A stretch of DNA of 64,000 nt from Syntrophorhabdaceae bacterium (GTDB taxonomy: Bacteria; Desulfobacterota; Syntrophorhabdia; Syntrophorhabdales; Syntrophorhabdaceae). Positions 8,734 through 50,300 of this stretch are shown here, in pieces (position 1 is the stretch's first letter; each line of letters begins with the position of its first letter). The stretch is from positions 1 through 64,000 of the forward strand of contig DATKMQ010000066.1 of NCBI GenBank assembly GCA_035541755.1. The letters run 5' to 3'. The notes beneath the pieces were generated by a model. That model was not told the DNA's origin, did not search any database, and saw only the letters and a list, made by a program, of their open reading frames with translations. Position numbers and translations under genes: made by a program.

Positions 8734-8884
8734 CTCACATCCGGGTCGGACTCTGTGCGAGGGCGTGGCGCTCGCCGGGACGCGCCGAGATATCATATAA
8801 CCTCCCAATGTAATTGATCCCTTTGGTTAAGTGGCTCGGCTCACGCCCTGATCGTATCGGCGGCTTTTTCGCTCATAACATATC

Positions 8885-8917
8885 GTAATCGTTATATTTG
8901 ATACAAATCACACTTTC
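8885..8917 (+). repeat. 33-bp FNR-like dispersed repeat, copy 1
   Basis: Leftmost of eight copies. It begins GTAATCGTTATATT and continues with the conserved TGATACAAATCACACTTTC. The core TTGAT-ACAA-ATCA is an FNR/CRP-type dyad. No gene starts close downstream. Confidence 0.8.
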
Positions 8918-8997
8918 TGTGGCACAGATTGGCATTTATTCCATGTTTTGGGACACTTTTTGTGCCAATATCCTGGCTTGTCGGCGTATAATCTGTT

Positions 8998-9030
8998 GTA
9001 ATTATTATAGTTGACACAAATCACACTTTT
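8998..9030 (+). repeat. 33-bp FNR-like dispersed repeat, copy 2
   Basis: Starts GTAATTATTATAGT and continues TGACACAAATCACACTTTT, with one change in the dyad core. It lies 113 bp from copy 1 and about 55 bp upstream of the promoter of the structured RNA at 9113, so it could regulate that promoter. Confidence 0.8.
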
Positions 9031-9084
9031 CTGTTTTGCATTTTCGTTCGCGATTATATATTTAAGAAACCCAAAACATATTGA

Positions 9085-9112
9085 TTGACAATATCGTGTC
9101 TCGGTCTACAAT
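9085..9112 (+). promoter_or_regulatory. Sigma-70 promoter of the structured RNA
   Basis: A TTGACA -35 element at 9085-9090 and a TACAAT -10 element at 9107-9112, spaced 16 bp. The predicted start near 9119 falls on the first base pairs of the RNA's closing stem, so the promoter fits the RNA boundary. Confidence 0.65.
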
Positions 9113-9385
9113 AATATACAGGGAGGCACCGCTTCCCCATCAACCTATTGCTGGAAACAGCAAAAAGGAGGCTGCGCAATGAGTAAGTTGATAGCTTACT
9201 TAACGATGGGTAGGCGTTCGCAAGGTTCTGCACCCTTGAGGAAACAAGTGGAGGGGTAAGTGGATTAGTCACCCGCACCCCGAAGCACTTTCTCGACAGG
9301 CCATAACCGAGTGGCATCTCGAAAGAGGTGTTACGTAAGCGGCGAGTTGACTACTCGTTGGCTGCGTAGCGCCTCCCTGTATATT
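9113..9385 (+). ncRNA. Large structured RNA of unknown family upstream of a GIY-YIG gene
   Basis: A 15-bp perfect inverted repeat (9113-9127 with 9371-9385, arm sequence AATATACAGGGAGGC) encloses 243 nt with many internal helices. Two hairpins end in GAAA tetraloops: TTGCTG-GAAA-CAGCAA at 9148-9163 and CATCTC-GAAA-GAGGTG at 9315-9330. Further helices are CCCATC 9136-9141 with GATGGG 9205-9210, AGTAAG 9182-9187 with CTTACT 9195-9200, CAAGG 9221-9225 with CCTTG 9234-9238, GGGGT 9253-9257 with ACCCC 9277-9281, and CGAGT 9343-9347 with ACTCG 9353-9357. Two hairpin loops could form pseudoknots: TTGAT 9188-9192 with ATCAA 9139-9143, and TGACT 9348-9352 with AGTCA 9267-9271. It has its own promoter and ends 45 nt before the GIY-YIG start codon. 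I found no group I R/S core and no group II domain V. It could be a ribozyme, a guide-like RNA, a leader, or a miniature element with terminal repeats. Confidence 0.65.
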
Positions 9386-9430
9386 TTGTGGTTTTACAGA
9401 ATCAAAATTCCTAATAGCAAGGGGGGCTTT

Positions 9431-9748
9431 ATGGTGTGTAATTGGCCATTGGGTAATGGAGAAACCTTGGGGTTTACTGTGTATGATCCTAACGCCAACT
9501 GGAACCGGGTCGCTGGTCTGTATGTTTTTGCCTATAGAACAGACCCAACCCATTGGAAGGCCATGTACGTTGGGCAGAGCAACGATTTTAGTTCTCGTCT
9601 TCCTGCTCATGACCGATGGGATGAGGCAGCCCGACGTGGGGCAACACACATTCATGCTCTGGTAGTTCCGCTGGCGGCCAACCGGGACAATTGGGAGGAG
9701 ATGCTAATTCAACATCTTCAACCGCCGATGAACGCTCAACTTCGTTAG
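9431..9748 (+). CDS. Small GIY-YIG endonuclease-domain protein (105 aa)
   Basis: A stand-alone GIY-YIG nuclease domain. The family's core residues are visible: GLY at about residues 34-36 (GIY position), YVG at about 52-54 (YIG position), the catalytic arginine in the segment DFSSRL, the metal-binding glutamate in NWEEMLI and the late asparagine in PPMNAQL. All catalytic positions appear intact. It has no added DNA-binding domain, so the target is not evident. The start at 9431 follows a strong GCAAGGGGGG ribosome binding site 6 nt upstream. The structured RNA lies directly upstream on the same strand, which suggests co-transcription. Homing endonucleases, UvrC-like repair enzymes and mobile-element nucleases share this fold. 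Confidence 0.75.
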   Translation: MVCNWPLGNGETLGFTVYDPNANWNRVAGLYVFAYRTDPTHWKAMYVGQSNDFSSRLPAHDRWDEAARRGATHIHALVVPLAANRDNWEEMLIQHLQPPMNAQLR

Positions 9749-9781
9749 CTGGTTGCATATAAGATCGTCTCCTTTAATATC

Positions 9782-9809
9782 ATTGTAGCACATATGTTCT
9801 AATTGTCAA
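9782..9809 (-). promoter_or_regulatory. Leftward sigma-70 promoter with SOS-box-like operator in the spacer
   Basis: On the minus strand: TTGACA (9804-9809), a 16-bp spacer, then TACAAT (9782-9787). The spacer holds AGAACATATGTGCT, a near-palindrome of GAAC-N4-GTTC type. It points towards and antisense to the GIY-YIG gene. It is nearly the mirror image of the promoter at 9882-9910. Confidence 0.5.
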
Positions 9810-9881
9810 GCACAAACTGTATAATATGACAGTACGGCCGCGCTATCTATAACATACGATAGTTTAGTTAGCGTTTTAAGA

Positions 9882-9910
9882 TTGACAAAGTAGAACATAT
9901 GTTCTATAAT
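9882..9910 (+). promoter_or_regulatory. Rightward consensus sigma-70 promoter with palindromic SOS-box-like operator
   Basis: A perfect TTGACA (9882-9887), a 17-bp spacer and a perfect TATAAT (9905-9910). The palindrome AGAACATATGTTCT (9892-9905) fills the spacer and touches the -10 box, so a bound repressor would block polymerase. It matches the GAAC-N4-GTTC form of Gram-positive LexA boxes; whether LexA or another repressor binds here is unknown. The predicted transcript runs antisense to the gene at 9967-10275. Confidence 0.6.
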
Positions 9911-9966
9911 GGGGTTATGGTTAGCGTGAGTTGTTTGACGCTGAAGCTAAAAGTTCCCGAAAATCT

Positions 9967-10275
9967 CTATTGTACGAAAGGAGGTTTTTTGGGTGGTTCC
10001 CCTCTTTTTAGTACGCCTTGCTGTTCAAGCCCTCGGATCAGATTTTCAAGAGAGTTGTATAAACCGATAAAAGCGTCTGGAGGCATCACCATGCGGCAAA
10101 CTGGGTACCTTCTCCCAGTGGGTTTTTTAGGTGTTTGTGGCATATCCATTCTGGTAACACACAGTTCAATGCGAGCAGATTGGCCATCAAATGTAACCAA
10201 ACCAACGGAGTCAGCAAATGTCTCAGAAACATCCGGTAAGTCAATGTAACGGACAGCGTCGTCGGGGAGCCTCAT
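9967..10275 (-). CDS. Small conserved-looking protein, DUF3467-like (102 aa)
   Basis: A strong start is visible: the minus strand reads CATAGGAGGAAAACC before the ATG at 10275. The protein has alternating strand segments (GLVTFDGQSARIELCVTRMDMP), then PVCRMVMPPDAFIGLYNSLENLIRGLEQQGVL. This recalls DUF3467-type small proteins, in which a strand-rich part is followed by a final helix; that assignment is tentative. No membrane segment or signal peptide. It is transcribed opposite to the consensus promoter at 9882-9910, so the two transcripts would overlap over the whole gene. Function unknown. Confidence 0.65.
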   Translation of the reverse strand: MRLPDDAVRYIDLPDVSETFADSVGLVTFDGQSARIELCVTRMDMPQTPKKPTGRRYPVCRMVMPPDAFIGLYNSLENLIRGLEQQGVLKRGEPPKKPPFVQ

Positions 10276-10553
10276 GGTTTTCCTCCTATGACAGTTATTT
10301 GATCGTTGTCTATAAAGACAACATTTATAGATCAGATAAAGGAAGATGGAAGGCCATTAAGTAATTACAGTTCTTTCGCGGCCCACTCTCGATTGCGATT
10401 TACTATGATTTTATCATTAACGGGTAAAAGATCAATCGTTTTTTGTCCCCGGATAAAGACAAACACAACATTTATAATAAAGTAATCTCCTAACTACCCG
10501 ATTTCATTACAGTCAAATAGTTTCATTGTGCCCCCAACACGGCGATACGCTTT
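10276..10553. other. AT-rich intergenic region with a near-duplicated block
   Basis: It contains the hairpin GTTGTCT-ATAA-AGACAAC at about 10295-10312. The segment ATAAAGACAACATTTATA recurs as ATAAAGACAAACACAACATTTATA at about 10454-10477, which looks like a duplicated control site. No gene seen. Confidence 0.4.
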
Positions 10554-10820
10554 ATGGCCGACACAGCCAATAGCCCCAATTGGAACAAAGCTCAAACAGT
10601 TTTCCTTGAGAATGGGAACAAGCCGCTGAAACTATCTGAGCTTGAAACTGAATTCCGCAAACGCAATTGGCCGATCAGCGAGAAGAACGCCAGGGAGGTG
10701 CTTAGGGCTACCCTAAACAGCAAGCCGTCAATATTTGTATACAACAGGGAAGATTGTACATATAGGATAAAAATAGATCGTCCCGAAACGAGAGGCGGTG
10801 TTCATGAAATAAGATCATAA
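10554..10820 (+). CDS. Hypothetical protein, possible winged-helix type (88 aa)
   Basis: I do not recognise this protein firmly. It has an acidic-basic alternating pattern with a predicted helix-turn-helix-like run (KPLKLSELETEFRKRNWPISEKNAREVLRA is split across two helices) followed by a strand pair IFVYNRE and YRIKI. That layout recalls small winged-helix domains of the HARE-HTH kind, an inference only. The upstream bases lack a clear ribosome binding site, which lowers confidence in the exact start. A 14-bp hairpin follows the stop directly. Confidence 0.5.
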   Translation: MADTANSPNWNKAQTVFLENGNKPLKLSELETEFRKRNWPISEKNAREVLRATLNSKPSIFVYNREDCTYRIKIDRPETRGGVHEIRS

Positions 10821-10822
10821 AA

Positions 10823-10856
10823 AAAGAGGCTTTGTTCTGGTAAACAAAGTCTCTTT
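10823..10856. terminator. 14-bp hairpin after the 88-aa gene
   Basis: AAAGAGGCTTTGTT pairs with AACAAAGTCTCTTT around a 6-nt loop. The U-run expected for an intrinsic terminator is on the minus strand (six A on the plus side directly before the stem), so it should stop leftward transcripts best and rightward ones weakly. Confidence 0.65.
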
Positions 10857-10982
10857 CAAACCCTATTCCCACTTGCGTCAACAAGTGGTTAATCTATGCC
10901 CCACATTCATTAGGGCGCGTTTACGTCTATTACTAGTATAGCGTGCTTCCTAACTGATGTCAAGGGCAAAAGGAGGTACGCT

Positions 10983-11075
10983 ATGAAACAGCGTCAACCA
11001 ACCCGTAAGAAACATACGGGCAGACGGTTTGTCGTAAGGCCCACAAAGCCTGTCATGGTACGGAAGCGCCTGTAA
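10983..11075 (+). CDS. 30-aa highly basic small protein
   Basis: Strong gene signals for so short a frame: AAAGGAGG six bases before the ATG and an intrinsic terminator 20 nt after the stop. The peptide is rich in Arg and Lys (about 13 of 30 residues) with the clusters TRKKHTGRR and MVRKRL, no acidic residue and no membrane stretch. Such composition suggests nucleic-acid or ribosome binding; function is unknown. It is an independent unit, with a hairpin (CCACTTG with CAAGTGG, 10869-10888) about 95 nt upstream. It lies just downstream of the IS1595-type element, on the opposite strand. Confidence 0.6.
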   Translation: MKQRQPTRKKHTGRRFVVRPTKPVMVRKRL

Positions 11076-11095
11076 GGCATTAGCACAAACCAACG

Positions 11096-11125
11096 GGGAG
11101 AGCTTCGGCTCTCCCTTTATTTTTT
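11096..11125 (+). terminator. Intrinsic terminator of the 30-aa gene
   Basis: GGGAGAGC-TTCG-GCTCTCCC (11096-11115), an 8-bp stem with the very stable UUCG loop, followed by TTTATTTTTT. Classic rho-independent form on the plus strand. Confidence 0.9.
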
Positions 11126-11264
11126 ACCTTTTTTCTTTCTCGGTTCAGGTGCTGTAGCCAAAAGTCCCTTAAGCACGGAATCGAAATCAGCTTTTAAGAT
11201 TTCTTCTTCCTGTACTTCCTTTTCGCTCCCGTCCTCGGTCTTTGTTTTCTTTTCTTCAGTCAAA
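11117..11264 (-). pseudogene. Small ORF following the transposase, frame broken in an A5 run
   Basis: Directly after the transposase stop there is AAGGA, then TTG at 11264, which opens the frame LTEEKKTKTEDGSEK. That frame is lost at a run of five A on the minus strand (11220-11224). The neighbouring frame continues as VQEEEILKADFDSVLKGLL and ends KKKGKK at the stop 11117. Together they read as one charged protein of about 49 residues with a one-base slip. Small charged ORFs coupled to IS1595-type transposases fit this position. A real frameshift, a programmed slip or a base-call error are all possible. Confidence 0.4.
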
Positions 11265-11267
11265 TAA

Positions 11268-12158
11268 TCAGTCCTTGTACGTTAACCTTCTTCCTTCAAT
11301 TCCCTTAAGAGCCGCAACCGTCCGTGTCGCATCATTCTCATGTCTGTAATTATATCTCATATCGAACTCCGCAAGGTACCTGTGAAGGTGGTTGCTATCT
11401 ACATGATGATACACCCCTATTATACCACGTTTCAGAAGGCTGAAGTATCCTTCAACCGTATTCGTATGAACATCGCCGCGAGCGTATTCTTTTGCGCTGT
11501 GACAGACAGTCTCATGAGAAGCGAACTCACAACCCAATCCATTGTAAGAGCCGAATTCATCAGTCATGATCTTAGCGGATTTGTCAACGTTCTCCCTTAT
11601 GATCTGTTTAAGGTTCACGCTGTCTACGCGCTTAACTGGCATAGACCTGACTTTACCATTTCTCTCCACAAGGGCAAAGACGGGGGTTTTGTTGTCTGTA
11701 CCGCGCCCAGTCCCCCCGCCGCGAACCTTACCCCCGACATAGGTTTCATCGGCTTCAATGATCCCCTCAAGAAGCCTTGTAGGTCTTTGTCGCATAGCGA
11801 AACGGATACGGTGAGCCATAAACCACGCTGACTTATAGGTGACACCCAATGTTCTGTGCAACTGATGAGAGGACATACCCTTCTTGGAGGAACATAGTAG
11901 ATAGGTAGCCAACAACCACTTGTGTAAGGGTATGTGGCTACGCTCAAAGACCGTACCCACAGTCACGGAGAACTGTTTTCGGCACTCTTGGCATTTCCAC
12001 AGTCCTTTCCGGTGAGCATCACCTTGTAGACGATAGTGTGCCTCCCTACTACCGCAATGAGGACACACAACAACATCAGGCCAACGAAGTTTTTCAAGAT
12101 ATTCGCGCGCTTTTTCTTCGTCCGTAAAGTATGGAGCAGAAAACCCTATCTTTTCCAT
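11268..12158 (-). CDS. IS1595-family transposase (ISXO2-like, 296 aa)
   Basis: Transposase of an IS1595-group insertion sequence. The N-terminal zinc ribbon has the pairs CPHC and CQEC (about residues 31-65), used for DNA binding in this family. The ISXO2-like DDE domain follows: ADETYVGGK holds the first Asp, DEFGSYNGL the second, and the NTVEGYFSLLKRGIIGVYHH segment the family's C-terminal motif with the third acidic residue. The start at 12158 is set by GGAGGATATGAC upstream; an earlier ATG at 12188 has no such box. The frame is intact, so the element could be active. I could not identify terminal inverted repeats or the target duplication with certainty. Confidence 0.9.
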   Translation of the reverse strand: MEKIGFSAPYFTDEEKAREYLEKLRWPDVVVCPHCGSREAHYRLQGDAHRKGLWKCQECRKQFSVTVGTVFERSHIPLHKWLLATYLLCSSKKGMSSHQLHRTLGVTYKSAWFMAHRIRFAMRQRPTRLLEGIIEADETYVGGKVRGGGTGRGTDNKTPVFALVERNGKVRSMPVKRVDSVNLKQIIRENVDKSAKIMTDEFGSYNGLGCEFASHETVCHSAKEYARGDVHTNTVEGYFSLLKRGIIGVYHHVDSNHLHRYLAEFDMRYNYRHENDATRTVAALKGIEGRRLTYKD

Positions 12159-12178
12159 GTCATATCCTCCATACAGTA

Positions 12179-12207
12179 ATGATAGCACATGGTCTTGGGT
12201 TTGTCAA
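12179..12207 (-). promoter_or_regulatory. Promoter of the IS1595-type transposase
   Basis: Minus strand: TTGACA (12202-12207), 17-bp spacer, TATCAT (12179-12184), about 20 nt before the transposase start codon. Confidence 0.6.
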
Positions 12208-12566
12208 GTATATAATTGCGTTTTCGTTTGCCTGGTGATTTACCGCGATCTGTACGACAGATCCGCGGGGGCTCGCTAGCAATTTGCGGCGGTCATGCAC
12301 GTGAGCACGCGAGTCGATTTCCGTACCGGCTTCTTCACCGCTCTGCCTACCAATTGGGATCGCGCCACTCGCCATTACCCTGTTCTATACCGGGCTCAGT
12401 CCGATCCGTGCAGAAGCTTTTTTCTATTATGGATCTTCCTCCTTCAGAGAGAGATACGGCTATCGCCACCGCTCGCGTATAATCCCAGACCTTAAGGCCT
12501 GTACCTACCCGGTCGGAACGCACACAGATCTAAATAATGGGGGTTCATTTCTAGGTGTATGATCTC

Positions 12567-12599
12567 GTAATCACAGGAAGTGATACAAATCACACTTTC
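12567..12599 (+). repeat. 33-bp FNR-like dispersed repeat, copy 3
   Basis: Starts GTAATCACAGGAAG and continues TGATACAAATCACACTTTC, identical to copy 1 across the 19-base right part. Confidence 0.8.
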
Positions 12600-12770
12600 A
12601 TGTTTATTGTTCTCGTGTATCCCCGCGGTTTGAGCGCAAACATTTACCCCCATATTCAATAAAGATTATGGGGTAACATTATGTAATTATGTATATTAGC
12701 GGCACTGGAACCTCTGATTAACCGCCGAATCGGTTCTGCGAGTGACCGTCTCATGATAGTATAAGTCTCC

Positions 12771-12803
12771 GTAATCATAAAATATGATACAAATCACACT
12801 TTG
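12771..12803 (+). repeat. 33-bp FNR-like dispersed repeat, copy 4
   Basis: Starts GTAATCATAAAATA and continues TGATACAAATCACACTTTG. Closest to the consensus over the full unit. Confidence 0.8.
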
Positions 12804-13102
12804 GTGTTTCATATTTATTCTCTATGCTTCAGAGTGCCGGTGGTTCGCCAGGGGTGCGTGAGGGCCGTCGGGTCGCACGAATGTCGGGAGCCGGTAGATG
12901 AAGGGCCACCGATATCAGCATGCCTTGACTCCAAACTATCGGAACTTGCATCCCTCACCCCATCCCTGTTCTCATGATCTTACGGCGGAGCCCGAGCTCC
13001 CATGACAAGGGGCGCAAATGTCGGTTGCGCTTCTTACTGCCACCGTGTTGCGCGGCTCGCTCCGACGAGCGTCTGTACCTGGGATTTATTTTATATTATT
13101 CT

Positions 13103-13135
13103 TTGATTTTTGGGATTGATACAAATCACAGAGCC
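13103..13135 (+). repeat. 33-bp FNR-like dispersed repeat, copy 5 (diverged ends)
   Basis: The core TTGATACAAATCACA is intact, but the left part (TTGATTTTTGGGAT) and the right end (GAGCC) have diverged. Confidence 0.6.
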
Positions 13136-13197
13136 TTTAGCAAGCGTGATTGCAGAAACCCACGGGGGAGACGTCTATCGCTCCCGCGTAACGTACT

Positions 13198-13230
13198 GTA
13201 ATCATAAAAGTTGATACAAATCACACATTG
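13198..13230 (+). repeat. 33-bp FNR-like dispersed repeat, copy 6
   Basis: Starts GTAATCATAAAAGT and continues TGATACAAATCACACATTG, 95 bp after copy 5. Confidence 0.8.
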
Positions 13231-13717
13231 ACTGCGTGGAATTGCGTTTTAGGACCCGATAGCGAGGTTTTGGGGCCGGATAACCCGTTGGAATGACGGC
13301 GTATCATTGTTTGGCAAGGACTTCTCGTCTAATCGCTTTTTTTGTTATGGTGAAGGCAAGTTTACGTGGTCTTAAGCGCCCTCGCCTTCTTGAGTTTGAG
13401 CCCTGCCTGTCAGGTCTCTTTATTCCCGCTGCGGTCCGCCGGAATCTCCCTACTTGTTATACTAGGCATTAGACGACTCTACCAGGGGTCAATGCTTTGA
13501 GGCTTTCGCTACGGTTCCTCACCCCCCGCGATGGCTCTCAAGTTTGTATTTGCGTTGCAAATCATCCGCGGCTCTCGCTGGTGACCGCATGTGTGGGCAA
13601 AATTCGGCGCCGAGATAGCTCGACCCTGTGTTTCAGGCAGGAACCTCTCTTTTGTCTACGCACGCCCATTCTGAGGTTTCCGGCTCTCTATTCAAGTCAT
13701 GGCTTTGCCGAAACTGT

Positions 13718-13746
13718 TTGACATGCGGACAAGTTGCTGCTATAAA
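13718..13746 (+). promoter_or_regulatory. Promoter of tRNA-Ala
   Basis: TTGACA (13718-13723), 17-bp spacer, TATAAA (13741-13746), ten bases before the mature tRNA 5' end. Confidence 0.8.
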
Positions 13747-13755
13747 ATACGCTAC

Positions 13756-13831
13756 GGGGCTGTAGCTCAGCTGGGAGAGTACTTGACTGGCAGTCAAGGG
13801 GTCGAGGGTTCAATCCCCTTCAGCTCCACCA
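13756..13831 (+). tRNA. tRNA-Ala, anticodon GGC
   Basis: A 76-nt cloverleaf with encoded CCA. The acceptor stem is GGGGCTG with CAGCTCC (one G-U pair), the D arm GCTC/GAGT, the anticodon stem CTTGA/TCAAG with loop CTGGCAG (anticodon GGC, reading GCC/GCU alanine codons), and the T arm GAGGG/CCCTT with loop TTCAATC. It is a single-tRNA unit with its own promoter and terminator inside an otherwise gene-poor island. Confidence 0.95.
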
Positions 13832-13848
13832 ATTATTCCAATTAGCCA

Positions 13849-13876
13849 GGCCGTCTCTCCGACGGCCTCTTTTTTA
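13849..13876 (+). terminator. Terminator after tRNA-Ala
   Basis: GGCCGTC-TCTCC-GACGGCC followed by a T-rich run (TCTTTTTT): a 7-bp GC-rich stem with U-tract, 17 nt after the CCA end. Confidence 0.88.
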
Positions 13877-14032
13877 CCCGACCTGCCAACGCCCTCCTTA
13901 CCGTGCACCCCGTTCACTTTTCGTAATGCCCTTATAGAGTTATCCAGCTCAGCGCAGATAGCGTAAGGCATCACGAAAGCCCGGCGCGTCCCATGTAAGG
14001 GGGGGGGTATCGAAAACTGTCCCTTTTTCTTG

Positions 14033-14060
14033 TTGACGAACTCGCGAGACGTGCTATAAT
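14033..14060 (+). promoter_or_regulatory. Promoter of a candidate small RNA
   Basis: TTGACG (14033-14038), 16-bp spacer, perfect TATAAT (14055-14060). The predicted start is near 14067, with no gene in frame downstream before a terminator. Confidence 0.6.
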
Positions 14061-14066
14061 TGAAAT

Positions 14067-14160
14067 TACTCTCCTCCGCGCTCGCTGGTTGCCGGAGGGG
14101 TGTCGTACTCGGCCACCGGAACTGCCGTCAACAGACAGGTCTTCCGGTGGCTTTTCTTTT
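14067..14160 (+). ncRNA. Candidate small RNA of about 90 nt
   Basis: Between a good promoter and a terminator-like hairpin. The first hairpin is CTCCTCCG (14071-14078) with CGGAGGGG (14093-14100), 8 pairs. The second is CCACCGGAA (14113-14121) with TTCCGGTGG (14142-14150), 9 pairs and a 20-nt loop, followed by CTTTTCTTTT. No open reading frame of note lies inside. The loop of the first hairpin (about 14079-14092) or the large loop of the second could serve for base pairing with targets. No known family recognised. Confidence 0.5.
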
Positions 14161-14396
14161 AAAAGTCGGCTAGTTAGCTCCCTTTTTCTGCTTACCGTCC
14201 CCGCCGTTATCAATCCCTCATGCTTTTTCCGCGTCTGCCTCGAAGCGTCTCGTGCGAACAGTACTTCTTGGTTAGCAATGTGGTAATGCGTGGAGCGTTC
14301 GTTCTTCCGGGTAACCATGAAAGAGACTCGCTCCATCTGGATACCGACGAAGACGAGTCGATTGTTCAATACACAGCGCCGCAGTAACGGAATTTG

Positions 14397-14846
14397 TCAT
14401 ATCACCTGATAGAACTCCAGGTGCACCTTGTCATCAACACCCTTCATCAGCGATCCGACAAAGATAGAATTGTTGATCCATGCGTACTTGTCATCGGCGA
14501 CCAGGAATCTCGGGCTTGTTCTCGCGTAATATGCGCCCGGATCCACTGGCGCCTGATTTGCTTGTGAGAGATTGGGTGTGTAGATGAAGCCTTCGTTTGT
14601 GACTGATATGAGGACCTCGTCGTCCGTCTTCAGTGTGTATCTGGCCCAGGCTTTTCTAATTCCATCAGACCGTTGCAAATTCCAATCGGCCCCGCCATTT
14701 ATTACGCTTCCTCTGATTCTCGGCCCCTCAAATGTTCCGCCGACGATTGGAATAATGCGTAACAACCCTTCTGGGGTGCGTCCTACTTCTATGGGGGTAG
14801 CAACATCCACAATGACCTTCATAAAATACTCTAATTGCAAAGACAT
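14397..14846 (-). CDS. DUF3237 family protein (149 aa)
   Basis: Recognised as DUF3237 by the ordered motifs IEVGRTPEGLLRIIPIVGGTFEGPRIRG, GGADWNLQRSDG, ARYTLKTDDEVLISVTNEGF, DPGAYYARTSPRF and YAWINNSIFVG, each near its usual place. The family is a single small beta-barrel-like domain of unknown function, often found near genes for aromatic or hydroxy-acid metabolism. The start follows GGGAGG eleven bases upstream. No signal peptide. It is the only gene in the right half of the island with a clear family and an intact frame. Confidence 0.85.
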   Translation of the reverse strand: MSLQLEYFMKVIVDVATPIEVGRTPEGLLRIIPIVGGTFEGPRIRGSVINGGADWNLQRSDGIRKAWARYTLKTDDEVLISVTNEGFIYTPNLSQANQAPVDPGAYYARTSPRFLVADDKYAWINNSIFVGSLMKGVDDKVHLEFYQVI

Positions 14847-14882
14847 GATTTAGCCCTCCCTTACCTATTCCGGCTGGATTTT

Positions 14883-15167
14883 CTATGATTCAGACTCCCT
14901 CGTGAGCGTCATGCCGCCTGGTTTTGGATACAGGGATCGACCGGCGATACCTTCACGATCTCTGGATTTATCGCCAGCAATTTTTACGCCCAATCCAAAA
15001 TCTATCATGCAATGGCCAGAGAAACAATCCCGGTTCGCCACAACGCCATCCGCCTCTTCTCACTCACCGCACTTACCTCGCTTGATCGTGCCTTCAGAGT
15101 CAGCCTTTCTACAGAAGGAGCCACACTCCCTTTTCCCTGTTAATCCATTTGGCGAACCCTTTTGTAT
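14883..15167 (-). pseudogene. Protein-like frame with one internal UGA, possible cysteine-rich domain
   Basis: From an ATA codon at 15167 to a TAG at 14883 there are 95 codons in one frame with a single TGA at codon 36. The first part reads GSPNGLTGKRECGSFCRK and RGKCGE; after the TGA it reads EEADGVVANRDCFSGHC and MIDFGLGVKIAGDKSRDR. The spacing of cysteines and the V-x-x-N-x-x-C ending recall small zinc-binding domains of the CxxC...GxC...C type. The start (ATA where ATG is expected, with AAAGGGA upstream) and the UGA both look like single-base lesions, so a decaying gene is the simplest reading. A UGA-encoded selenocysteine is possible but not supported by a clear SECIS hairpin. Confidence 0.35.
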
Positions 15168-15248
15168 TTAGTTCCCTTTGATCATGGGCGCTCTGTTTTC
15201 TTCAGGTTTGCGATCAACCTCTTTTTCTTTCGAGAGGTTGGCACACAA

Positions 15249-15316
15249 CTGTCATATACGACAGACAAATACCCGTTGGCTGGATAGGTGGATTCCACAA
15301 CTGACGTATATGACAG
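15249..15316. repeat. Pair of palindromic CTGTC-type sites
   Basis: CTGTCATATACGACAG (15249-15264) and CTGACGTATATGACAG (15301-15316) are inverted copies of each other, differing at one base, and each is itself a near-palindrome. Centre distance is 52 bp, about five helical turns, which suits a pair of operators. No gene start lies beside them apart from the small frames on the minus strand. Confidence 0.5.
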
Positions 15317-15345
15317 ATCTATGATTCAGATAGCCCACTACCGCC

Positions 15346-15444
15346 TTAAGGCCTGGTTACACAAGGGGAACCAGTCATCTTGGGCGTCCCGTCGGTCAAG
15401 CGAATGTACACTTCTTTATCGTTGATGAGATCCACGCGAACCAT
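15346..15444 (-). CDS. Possible 32-aa small protein
   Basis: The minus strand carries GGGGAGG nine bases before the ATG at 15444. The peptide (begins MVRVDLINDKEVYIRL, then a TDGTPK turn) has a strand-turn-strand look and stops at 15346. It could be a remnant of the N-terminus of a larger protein. No family recognised. It lies upstream of the UGA-interrupted frame and the DUF3237 gene on the same strand. Confidence 0.35.
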   Translation of the reverse strand: MVRVDLINDKEVYIRLTDGTPKMTGSPCVTRP

Positions 15445-15533
15445 ATAATGTTGCCTCCCCGTGACGCATGAAGGTAGAGCGAAAGGCTCTCGTTGCCATG
15501 AGCGGGTACGTGATTACTGCAGCAGGGGTTTTG

Positions 15534-15566
15534 GAAAGTGTGATTTGTATCACCTTTTATGATTAT
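15534..15566 (-). repeat. 33-bp FNR-like dispersed repeat, copy 7 (reversed)
   Basis: On the minus strand it reads ATAATCATAAAAGG then TGATACAAATCACACTTTC, matching copies 1 and 3 over the right part. Opposite orientation to copies 1-6. Confidence 0.8.
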
Positions 15567-15734
15567 AGTAAGTTACAATGACAGAAATGCCCCGACATCG
15601 TGACATTCGGATGGGGACAAGCGACGAAGGTGTTCGTGCATAAAAAGCTTAATCACTATGGTTTCCGCGTGTTACATACAAGTTTTTGCAGAAATGCCGG
15701 ACTAACGACAAGGCAAATTGAGTCACAGGCCAAC

Positions 15735-15767
15735 GAAAGTGTGATTTGCGTCAGGTTTAAATATTAC
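15735..15767 (-). repeat. 33-bp FNR-like dispersed repeat, copy 8 (reversed)
   Basis: On the minus strand it reads GTAATATTTAAACC then TGACGCAAATCACACTTTC, with two changes in the dyad core. It is the outermost copy on the right. Confidence 0.75.
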
Positions 15768-16127
15768 AATATGTTATGTTGGTGCATTGCGGTGTGATTC
15801 ACCTGCAATGAAAGGTGGGCGTTCTCAAACGCGGGCAGCAGGGTTAAGGTCTGGAGGAGTCATCGCGTGGCACTCTATCTGGTCCCTCTTCCCAAGGACA
15901 GATGCTCGTTTCGACCGGGTAGGGCGTCCGGCTGATAAATGGCGGGCAGCCAATGGGGGTTGATGCCCTTAAATAAATCAGCTTCGAGCGGCGGAGCCAC
16001 GTGTTCCGGCTCCGTCAGCCATCTTAGGAGGGTCACAAGCTTCCCGTTGAAAGACTATTGATCTATTGGTGAAATATGGTACCATAAGCTTTGCCGGATT
16101 GAATAAATCAGAAGGGGGTATGTGGGC

Positions 16128-16595
16128 ATGCGACTCTATCTTGTGCAACATGCAGAGGCAAAAAAGGAAGAGGAAGATCCAGAGAGGGGTCTTACCGCCC
16201 GGGGACTCACCGACATACGCAAGGTAGCTGAATACGCGGCAAGGCTTCCTGTTGCCGTGAATGCCATATACCACAGCGGAAAGAAACGGGCCGCACAGAC
16301 CGCTCAGATGCTCGCCGATTTCATACGGCCCAAGGTGCCTCTCTTCGCTGTGGAGGGGCTCTCGCCTCAGGATGATCCAGGGACCTGGTTTAGCCGCCTG
16401 AAGGCGAGCAACGAAGACATGATAATCGTCGGCCACCTTCCCCATCTCGCCAAACTCGCGGGGCTTCTGCTTGAGGGTGACAGCGAGAGAAACTGCATCG
16501 CTTTCAAAATGGGCGGCATGGTCTGTCTGAAAAGGGGCGACAATGACAGATGGACGGTTGAATGGGTCCTTGTGCCGGAGGTGGTTCGCGGATGA
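16128..16595 (+). CDS. sixA: SixA-type phosphohistidine phosphatase (155 aa)
   Basis: A small histidine phosphatase that removes phosphate from phosphohistidine, for example on HPt or phosphotransferase proteins, in the cytoplasm. The family start MRLYLVQHAEA is visible, with His8 as nucleophile, the segment DPERGLTARGLTDI next, YHSGKKRAAQTA in the middle and the second histidine in VGHLPHLAKL. The RHG motif reads QHA here, with Gln for the usual Arg. The start at 16128 follows GAAGGGGG. It overlaps rmuC by 4 nt (ATGA), so the two are co-translated. It is the first gene to the right of the accessory island. Confidence 0.88.
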   Translation: MRLYLVQHAEAKKEEEDPERGLTARGLTDIRKVAEYAARLPVAVNAIYHSGKKRAAQTAQMLADFIRPKVPLFAVEGLSPQDDPGTWFSRLKASNEDMIIVGHLPHLAKLAGLLLEGDSERNCIAFKMGGMVCLKRGDNDRWTVEWVLVPEVVRG

Positions 16596-50133: not shown

Positions 50134-50300
50134 GTGAGCTGTGATGTAAGTCCGATCTTCAAGGGAAGTGAAGTGGAAGACTTCTGCTGTCCCGCAACTG
50201 TGATGGGTTCACGGTTTCCCATGGTGAAAACCAGCCACTGTTCCGAAGTACGCTGAACGGGAAGGCTCGAACCGGAAGGCCCTCAGCCAGGAAACCTTGG
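50134..50300 (+). promoter_or_regulatory. Cobalamin riboswitch
   Basis: An adenosylcobalamin-type sensing leader. The conserved blocks occur in order: AAGGGAAG near 50160, CTGTCCCGCAACTGT near 50190, AGCCACTG near 50231, CGGGAAGGC near 50259, and the B12 box AGCCAGGAAACC at 50285-50296. It precedes the cobalt uptake and cobamide synthesis genes, the expected target. No U-run terminator follows, so control is probably at translation or by a long-range helix, an inference. Confidence 0.92.

Follow-up and report, generated by a model that had tools for sequence, protein, structure and literature searches.

Eight copies of a short asymmetric DNA module built around a dyad lie between 8.87 and 15.78 kb of a 64,000-nt stretch of a Syntrophorhabdaceae genome (hereafter, the window), and we tentatively suggest, as the best explanation among those considered, that they may form a locus-specific array of promoter/operator modules. 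Read on the strand opposite to the consensus of the original prediction, each module takes the form AAAGTGTGATTTGTATCA-N20-TA; a CRP/FNR-superfamily dimer would bind the dyad and position RNA polymerase at the −10-like element that follows, and the modules would thereby drive short untranslated transcripts. All eight would first have fired the same way, until inversion of a tRNA segment turned the two rightmost copies round. Eight conserved modules of predicted protein-binding type in otherwise gene-free DNA of one species are unusual for a regulon or a mobile repeat; as promoters, they would point to a group of untranslated transcripts controlled by a single regulator.

The repeat copies, eight of which had been reported for this region, proved real on direct scanning. 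Six lie on the + strand at the left: c1 (8873..8917; scan start 8885, core 8899-8912), c2 (8986..9030; scan start 8998, core 9012-9025), c3 (12555..12599; scan start 12567, core 12581-12594), c4 (12759..12803; scan start 12771, core 12785-12798), which matches the earlier consensus exactly, c5 (13091..13135; scan start 13103), where only the core at 13117-13130 is recognizable and TTGATACAAATCACA (13116-13130) and the upstream TA are left, and c6 (13186..13230; scan start 13198, core 13212-13225). Two lie on the − strand at the right, c7 (15534..15578; scan 15535-15566, core 15539-15552) and c8 (15734..15779; scan 15736-15767, core 15740-15753). Six copies share the 14-base core TGATACAAATCACA unchanged; it departs by one base in c2 (at 9012) and by two in c8 (at 15740), just as had been claimed. 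No chance match to the pattern at ≤3 mismatches arose in 100 shuffles, and the remark that none was noticed outside 8.8-15.8 kb agreed with our scan of the window, where the remaining sites all carried at least 12 mismatches in 30. The description of a 33-bp unit of constant length fared less well: the pattern as written spans 32 nt, the conserved module is wider, and the GTAATCATAAAA and CTTT parts are missing from c5, which means that there is more than one kind of unit. The most alike pairs are c6/c7, the closest (90% over 42 nt, inverted), and c1/c8 (80% inverted match over 50 nt).

Alignment of the copies with their flanks revealed a conserved block of about 40 bp, which opens with an invariant TA lying 22-23 bases ahead of the core, closes with CTTT and is bounded at both sides, the DNA beyond it differing completely among copies. 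Invariant columns comprise the TA at −23/−22, T.AT, and the TGA and CAAATCACA of the dyad; the FNR-like dyad noted originally is thus present as TGA-N6-TCA in 8/8 copies. Conservation is as strong in the central N4 spacer (ACAA) and in the flank CACTTT as in the half-sites. The module is asymmetric, not palindromic, and its predicted contacts recur at intervals of about 11 bp (−22.5, −11.5, 1 and 11). Such contacts, the layout of six + copies at the left and two − copies at the right, and the likeness within c1/c8 and c6/c7 would also suit sites bound by a protein of a mobile element or replicon (a Tn7/Mu-like multi-site transposase end, iterons or partition sites) left by a vanished element. 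We consider this rather improbable: a native tRNA-Ala gene lies between the two sets of copies, there is no rep or par gene and no transposase besides that of an IS1595-family element whose own ends differ from the repeat module, the outer ends lack TG...CA or a target duplication, and a spacing of 95-389 bp is wide for iterons. For the same region as a whole, 8.87-15.78 kb is not one transposon, because the native tRNA-Ala with its sixA/rmuC neighbourhood lies inside it, and a MITE or the terminal repeats of one transposon were rejected for want of facing pairs at short distance. Stoperators of cluster A mycobacteriophages, which occupy intergenic positions throughout the phage genome and are targets of its repressor, resemble the array as short asymmetric protein-binding sites present in many copies and in one orientation relative to transcription, whereas the array locus holds no phage genes.

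Class II activator sites are centred near −41.5 from the transcription start, roughly 29 bp upstream of the −10 hexamer. In the reverse complement of the array, a TANNNN hexamer starts 28.5 bp from the dyad centre in 8/8 copies, and the dyad centre falls at −40.5 if the TA begins a −10 element; on paper, this dyad–TA spacing resembles that of a class-II CRP/FNR promoter. The mean −10 score at the 28.5-bp offset was 3.4, versus about −3.3 averaged over offsets, and offset 12 scored slightly above the TA offset as a by-product of the conserved spacer. The −10 hexamers are good in c4, c5, c7 and c8 and poor in c3 and c6. The promoter reading gains from the DNA downstream of most copies, which is purine-rich on the predicted transcript strand, and from c5, the most decayed copy, which retains the dyad and TATAAA and little else. 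Against it count position 6 of the hexamer, a T in only 3/8 copies, the conservation of ACAA and CACTTT, which a CRP/FNR site does not require, and the lack of convincing terminators in a search behind the copies. The putative transcripts fold no better than shuffles, with c6 a marginal exception (z −2.1). As in known CRP/FNR class II promoters, a TGA-N6-TCA dyad stands about −40.5 upstream of a −10-like TA in a genome that encodes an ExxSR-type regulator; unlike them, the array has no genes behind its copies, an invariant N4 spacer and flanks, and no regulon elsewhere.

The original observation that the copies do not precede conventional genes holds, as no such gene was found behind them. With the IS1595-family element removed, the spacings from c1 to c6 are 113, 389, 204, 332 and 95 bp, and the segments between copies are unrelated, ORF-poor and of mixed GC. 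These inter-copy units share 13 11-mers, a modest excess over the 2.1 expected and the 8 reached at most in 100 shuffles; gapped alignment did not extend the shared 11-mers, and no convincing homology between the units was found. The possibility of a coding repeat was dismissed on inspection: several copies translate on the reverse strand as (S)VICI-x-FYDY, yet the variation is not third-position-biased and in several of them the frames soon stop. A T7-type phage promoter, with which 12/18 letters agree by eye, was set aside as there is no conserved start region; a search run without a positive control found no single-subunit RNA polymerase.

FNR itself, which the original prediction had invoked, is not supported as the cognate protein. 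The genome contains six perfect TTGAT-N4-ATCAA sites, all inside long reading frames, and because this regulon test failed we do not file the module as an FNR site. Compared with TTGAT-N4-ATCAA, the half-sites keep TGA/TCA invariant, but only 4/8 copies have the first T, and C replaces A as the last base; an FNR dimer, moreover, does not need an ACAA centre or a CACTTT flank. One-mismatch relatives of the repeat box elsewhere in the genome, mostly inside or overlapping reading frames, look like chance matches. The genome does encode a regulator of the FNR family, as had been proposed for checking: among nine proteins with a cNMP-binding domain (L041-L049), one (L042) has the FNR-like E-x-x-S-R recognition helix (...TIPETLSRILNKM...).

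To see how far the repeat extends, the whole 3.85-Mb genome was scanned with an 18-mer at ≤2 mismatches, which gave 7 matches, all at the array locus, and with a 47-column profile, which recovered all eight (E 1e-11 to 1e-7), the next best match standing at E 0.35. Copies spread genome-wide before ordinary genes, the mark of a normal regulon site, were thus not seen, and no further credible copy exists in the 3.85-Mb genome. Nor did the profile give a convincing match among 99 relatives or 297 genomes sampled across the phylum, two sets that overlap and together make about 400 genome searches. At the tRNA locus of five relatives no similar array was found, and the tandem repeats present at L056 in that comparison are unrelated to the array module. 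In 257 Gb of public genomes the exact 18-mer has 12 matches, one per contig and about the number expected by chance; the single match in G056 is isolated. The exact 18-mer is absent from the viral contigs searched, no homologues of the repeat were found in plasmids or phages, and literature searches returned nothing on point. As far as these sequence searches can tell, the repeat belongs to one locus of one species.

This restriction bears on two further explanations. If a 40-bp sequence had multiplied locally, without function, in neutral DNA between genes, this would explain why no gene, terminator or stable RNA is tied to the copies and why the array is absent from all relatives searched; we judge such amplification improbable, since across the eight copies the dyad core has hardly mutated and the flanks have fully diverged, a pattern that needs selection or very recent spread. 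Alternatively, the array might act as a decoy, titrating a CRP/FNR-family regulator without driving transcription. Eight near-identical dyads in gene-free DNA with no other copy in the genome would fit, and datA-type titration loci, with their DnaA boxes in non-coding DNA, are likewise clusters of binding sites in a gene-free locus, although the array boxes are not DnaA boxes and the array module is longer. Titration would not, however, need the conserved TA, T.AT columns and CACTTT, and no target regulon with the repeat box was found in the genome, which makes a decoy very unlikely.

The promoter/operator reading supposes that the copies were once co-oriented, and the surrounding genes bear on this. 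The native tRNA-Ala(GGC) gene (13756..13831, + strand) has rmuC and a sixA-like histidine phosphatase gene (16122..16595, + strand), its native neighbour in relatives, to its right. In G001, G016, G005, G021 and G018 the tRNA gene adjoins sixA and/or rmuC and is divergent from them (5/5 informative relatives); here it is co-directional with them, and the tRNA segment is therefore inverted in the window. Should that segment take in c7 and c8, the copies all pointed the same way at first; if crossing-over at c6/c7 caused the inversion, the mutual orientation of that pair is uninformative. The sequence fits c7 and c8 inside the inverted segment and crossing-over at c6 and c7 alike.

The second of these histories would suit att-like sites, a 40-bp module recognized by a tyrosine or serine recombinase, with non-coding segments piled up by integration and excision and the tRNA segment flipped by c6 × c7 recombination. 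Agreeing with this are the confinement to one locus, the unrelated segments of mixed GC between copies, the common orientation that all copies regain when the inversion is reversed, the position of c6/c7, the most similar pair, on either side of the inverted segment, and 24 tyrosine-recombinase matches in the genome. We nonetheless regard recombination sites as unlikely, although they are the strongest rival: neither a recombinase nor a recognizable remnant was found in the locus, a profile search placed no related site beside any recombinase of the genome, duplication also accounts for the similarity of c6 and c7, and the non-palindromic module shows no integron attC-like fold and, by inspection, no GTTRRRY/RYYYAAC ends. 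Integron attC arrays consist of imperfect palindromes with RYYYAAC/GTTRRRY ends. Arrays of this type, including CALINs, share with the present one co-oriented sites and unrelated, often non-coding segments between them; they differ from it in that its module is not an imperfect palindrome, lacks R′/R″ ends and has no adjacent integron integrase. The attC assignment was accordingly rejected, the required ends and palindrome being missing and single-strand folds being weak for c1, c4 and c6, with a short hairpin for c7. Were the copies recombination sites, the locus would be a cassette array of a new sort; that a non-integron recombinase uses the 40-bp module at this single locus, collects non-coding segments and inverts the DNA between opposed copies, including the tRNA gene, seems to us a long shot. 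A supposed integrase remnant before c8 (15582-15794) was also rejected, as a visual likeness only, with no Pfam match and weak PHROGs matches of unknown function. Elsewhere in the genome, contigs C29, C95 and C157 carry tandem tyrosine recombinase pairs at near-identical spacing (~868 bp in C29 and C95; 838 bp by match starts in C157), which suggests a multi-copy element with several recombinases.

The array is interrupted between c2 and c3 by a mobile element and its passengers. At 9049-12220 we found the features of the IS1595 family, namely a transposase gene (11268..12188, − strand; Pfam PF12762, 5e-40; NCBIfam NF033547, 2e-65), terminal inverted repeats with matching ends (CGCGATTATATATTTAAGAAACCCAA / CGCAATTATATACTTGACAAACCCAA) and the 8-bp target duplication TTTTCGTT at 9041-9048 and 12221-12228; judged by these boundaries, the element split the array by inserting inside it. 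The original view of the region as an accessory island therefore stands in part: the IS1595 element with its passengers is the most clearly foreign piece, but the tRNA-Ala-sixA-rmuC part is native, and the whole is not one island.

Passengers of the element include a structured RNA candidate and a GIY-YIG-like reading frame. The RNA candidate (9108-9392, + strand) has very strong predicted structure (z −6.8) with a perfect 15-bp closing stem (9113-9127/9371-9385), sits behind a predicted TTGACA-16-TACAAT promoter, and lacks an Rfam match; at the DNA level nothing similar turned up in phages, plasmids or 40 relatives. The small GIY-YIG-like protein (9431-9748, + strand; weak Pfam match, E 0.07) has a 42% relative in a viral contig (L126:3001-3312), beside type I restriction genes by eye and with no such structured RNA upstream. 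A 29-bp promoter at 9882-9910 with the palindrome TAGAACATATGTTCTA is identical on contig C88 (L050:2751-2779), beside a lexA-like gene; it is probably a LexA operator that travels with IS1595-family elements.

Several minor features lie to the right of the tRNA gene. Between it and a DUF3237 gene (14397..14846, − strand; Pfam PF11578, 3.5e-38) we noted a small, strongly structured RNA candidate (14066-14165, + strand; z −4.4) with a terminator-like end, a predicted TTGACG-16-TATAAT promoter at 14033-14060 and no Rfam match. Two CTGT-N8-ACAG-like palindromes, 51 bp apart, occupy 15250-15265 and 15301-15316, and a 32-codon reading frame, MVRVDLINDKEVYIRLTDGTPKMTGSPCVTRP (15349-15447, − strand), follows a GGGGAGG ribosome-binding-type site and has no Pfam match. 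Farther along the window, a cobalamin riboswitch (50162-50297, + strand) precedes a cobyric acid synthase gene.
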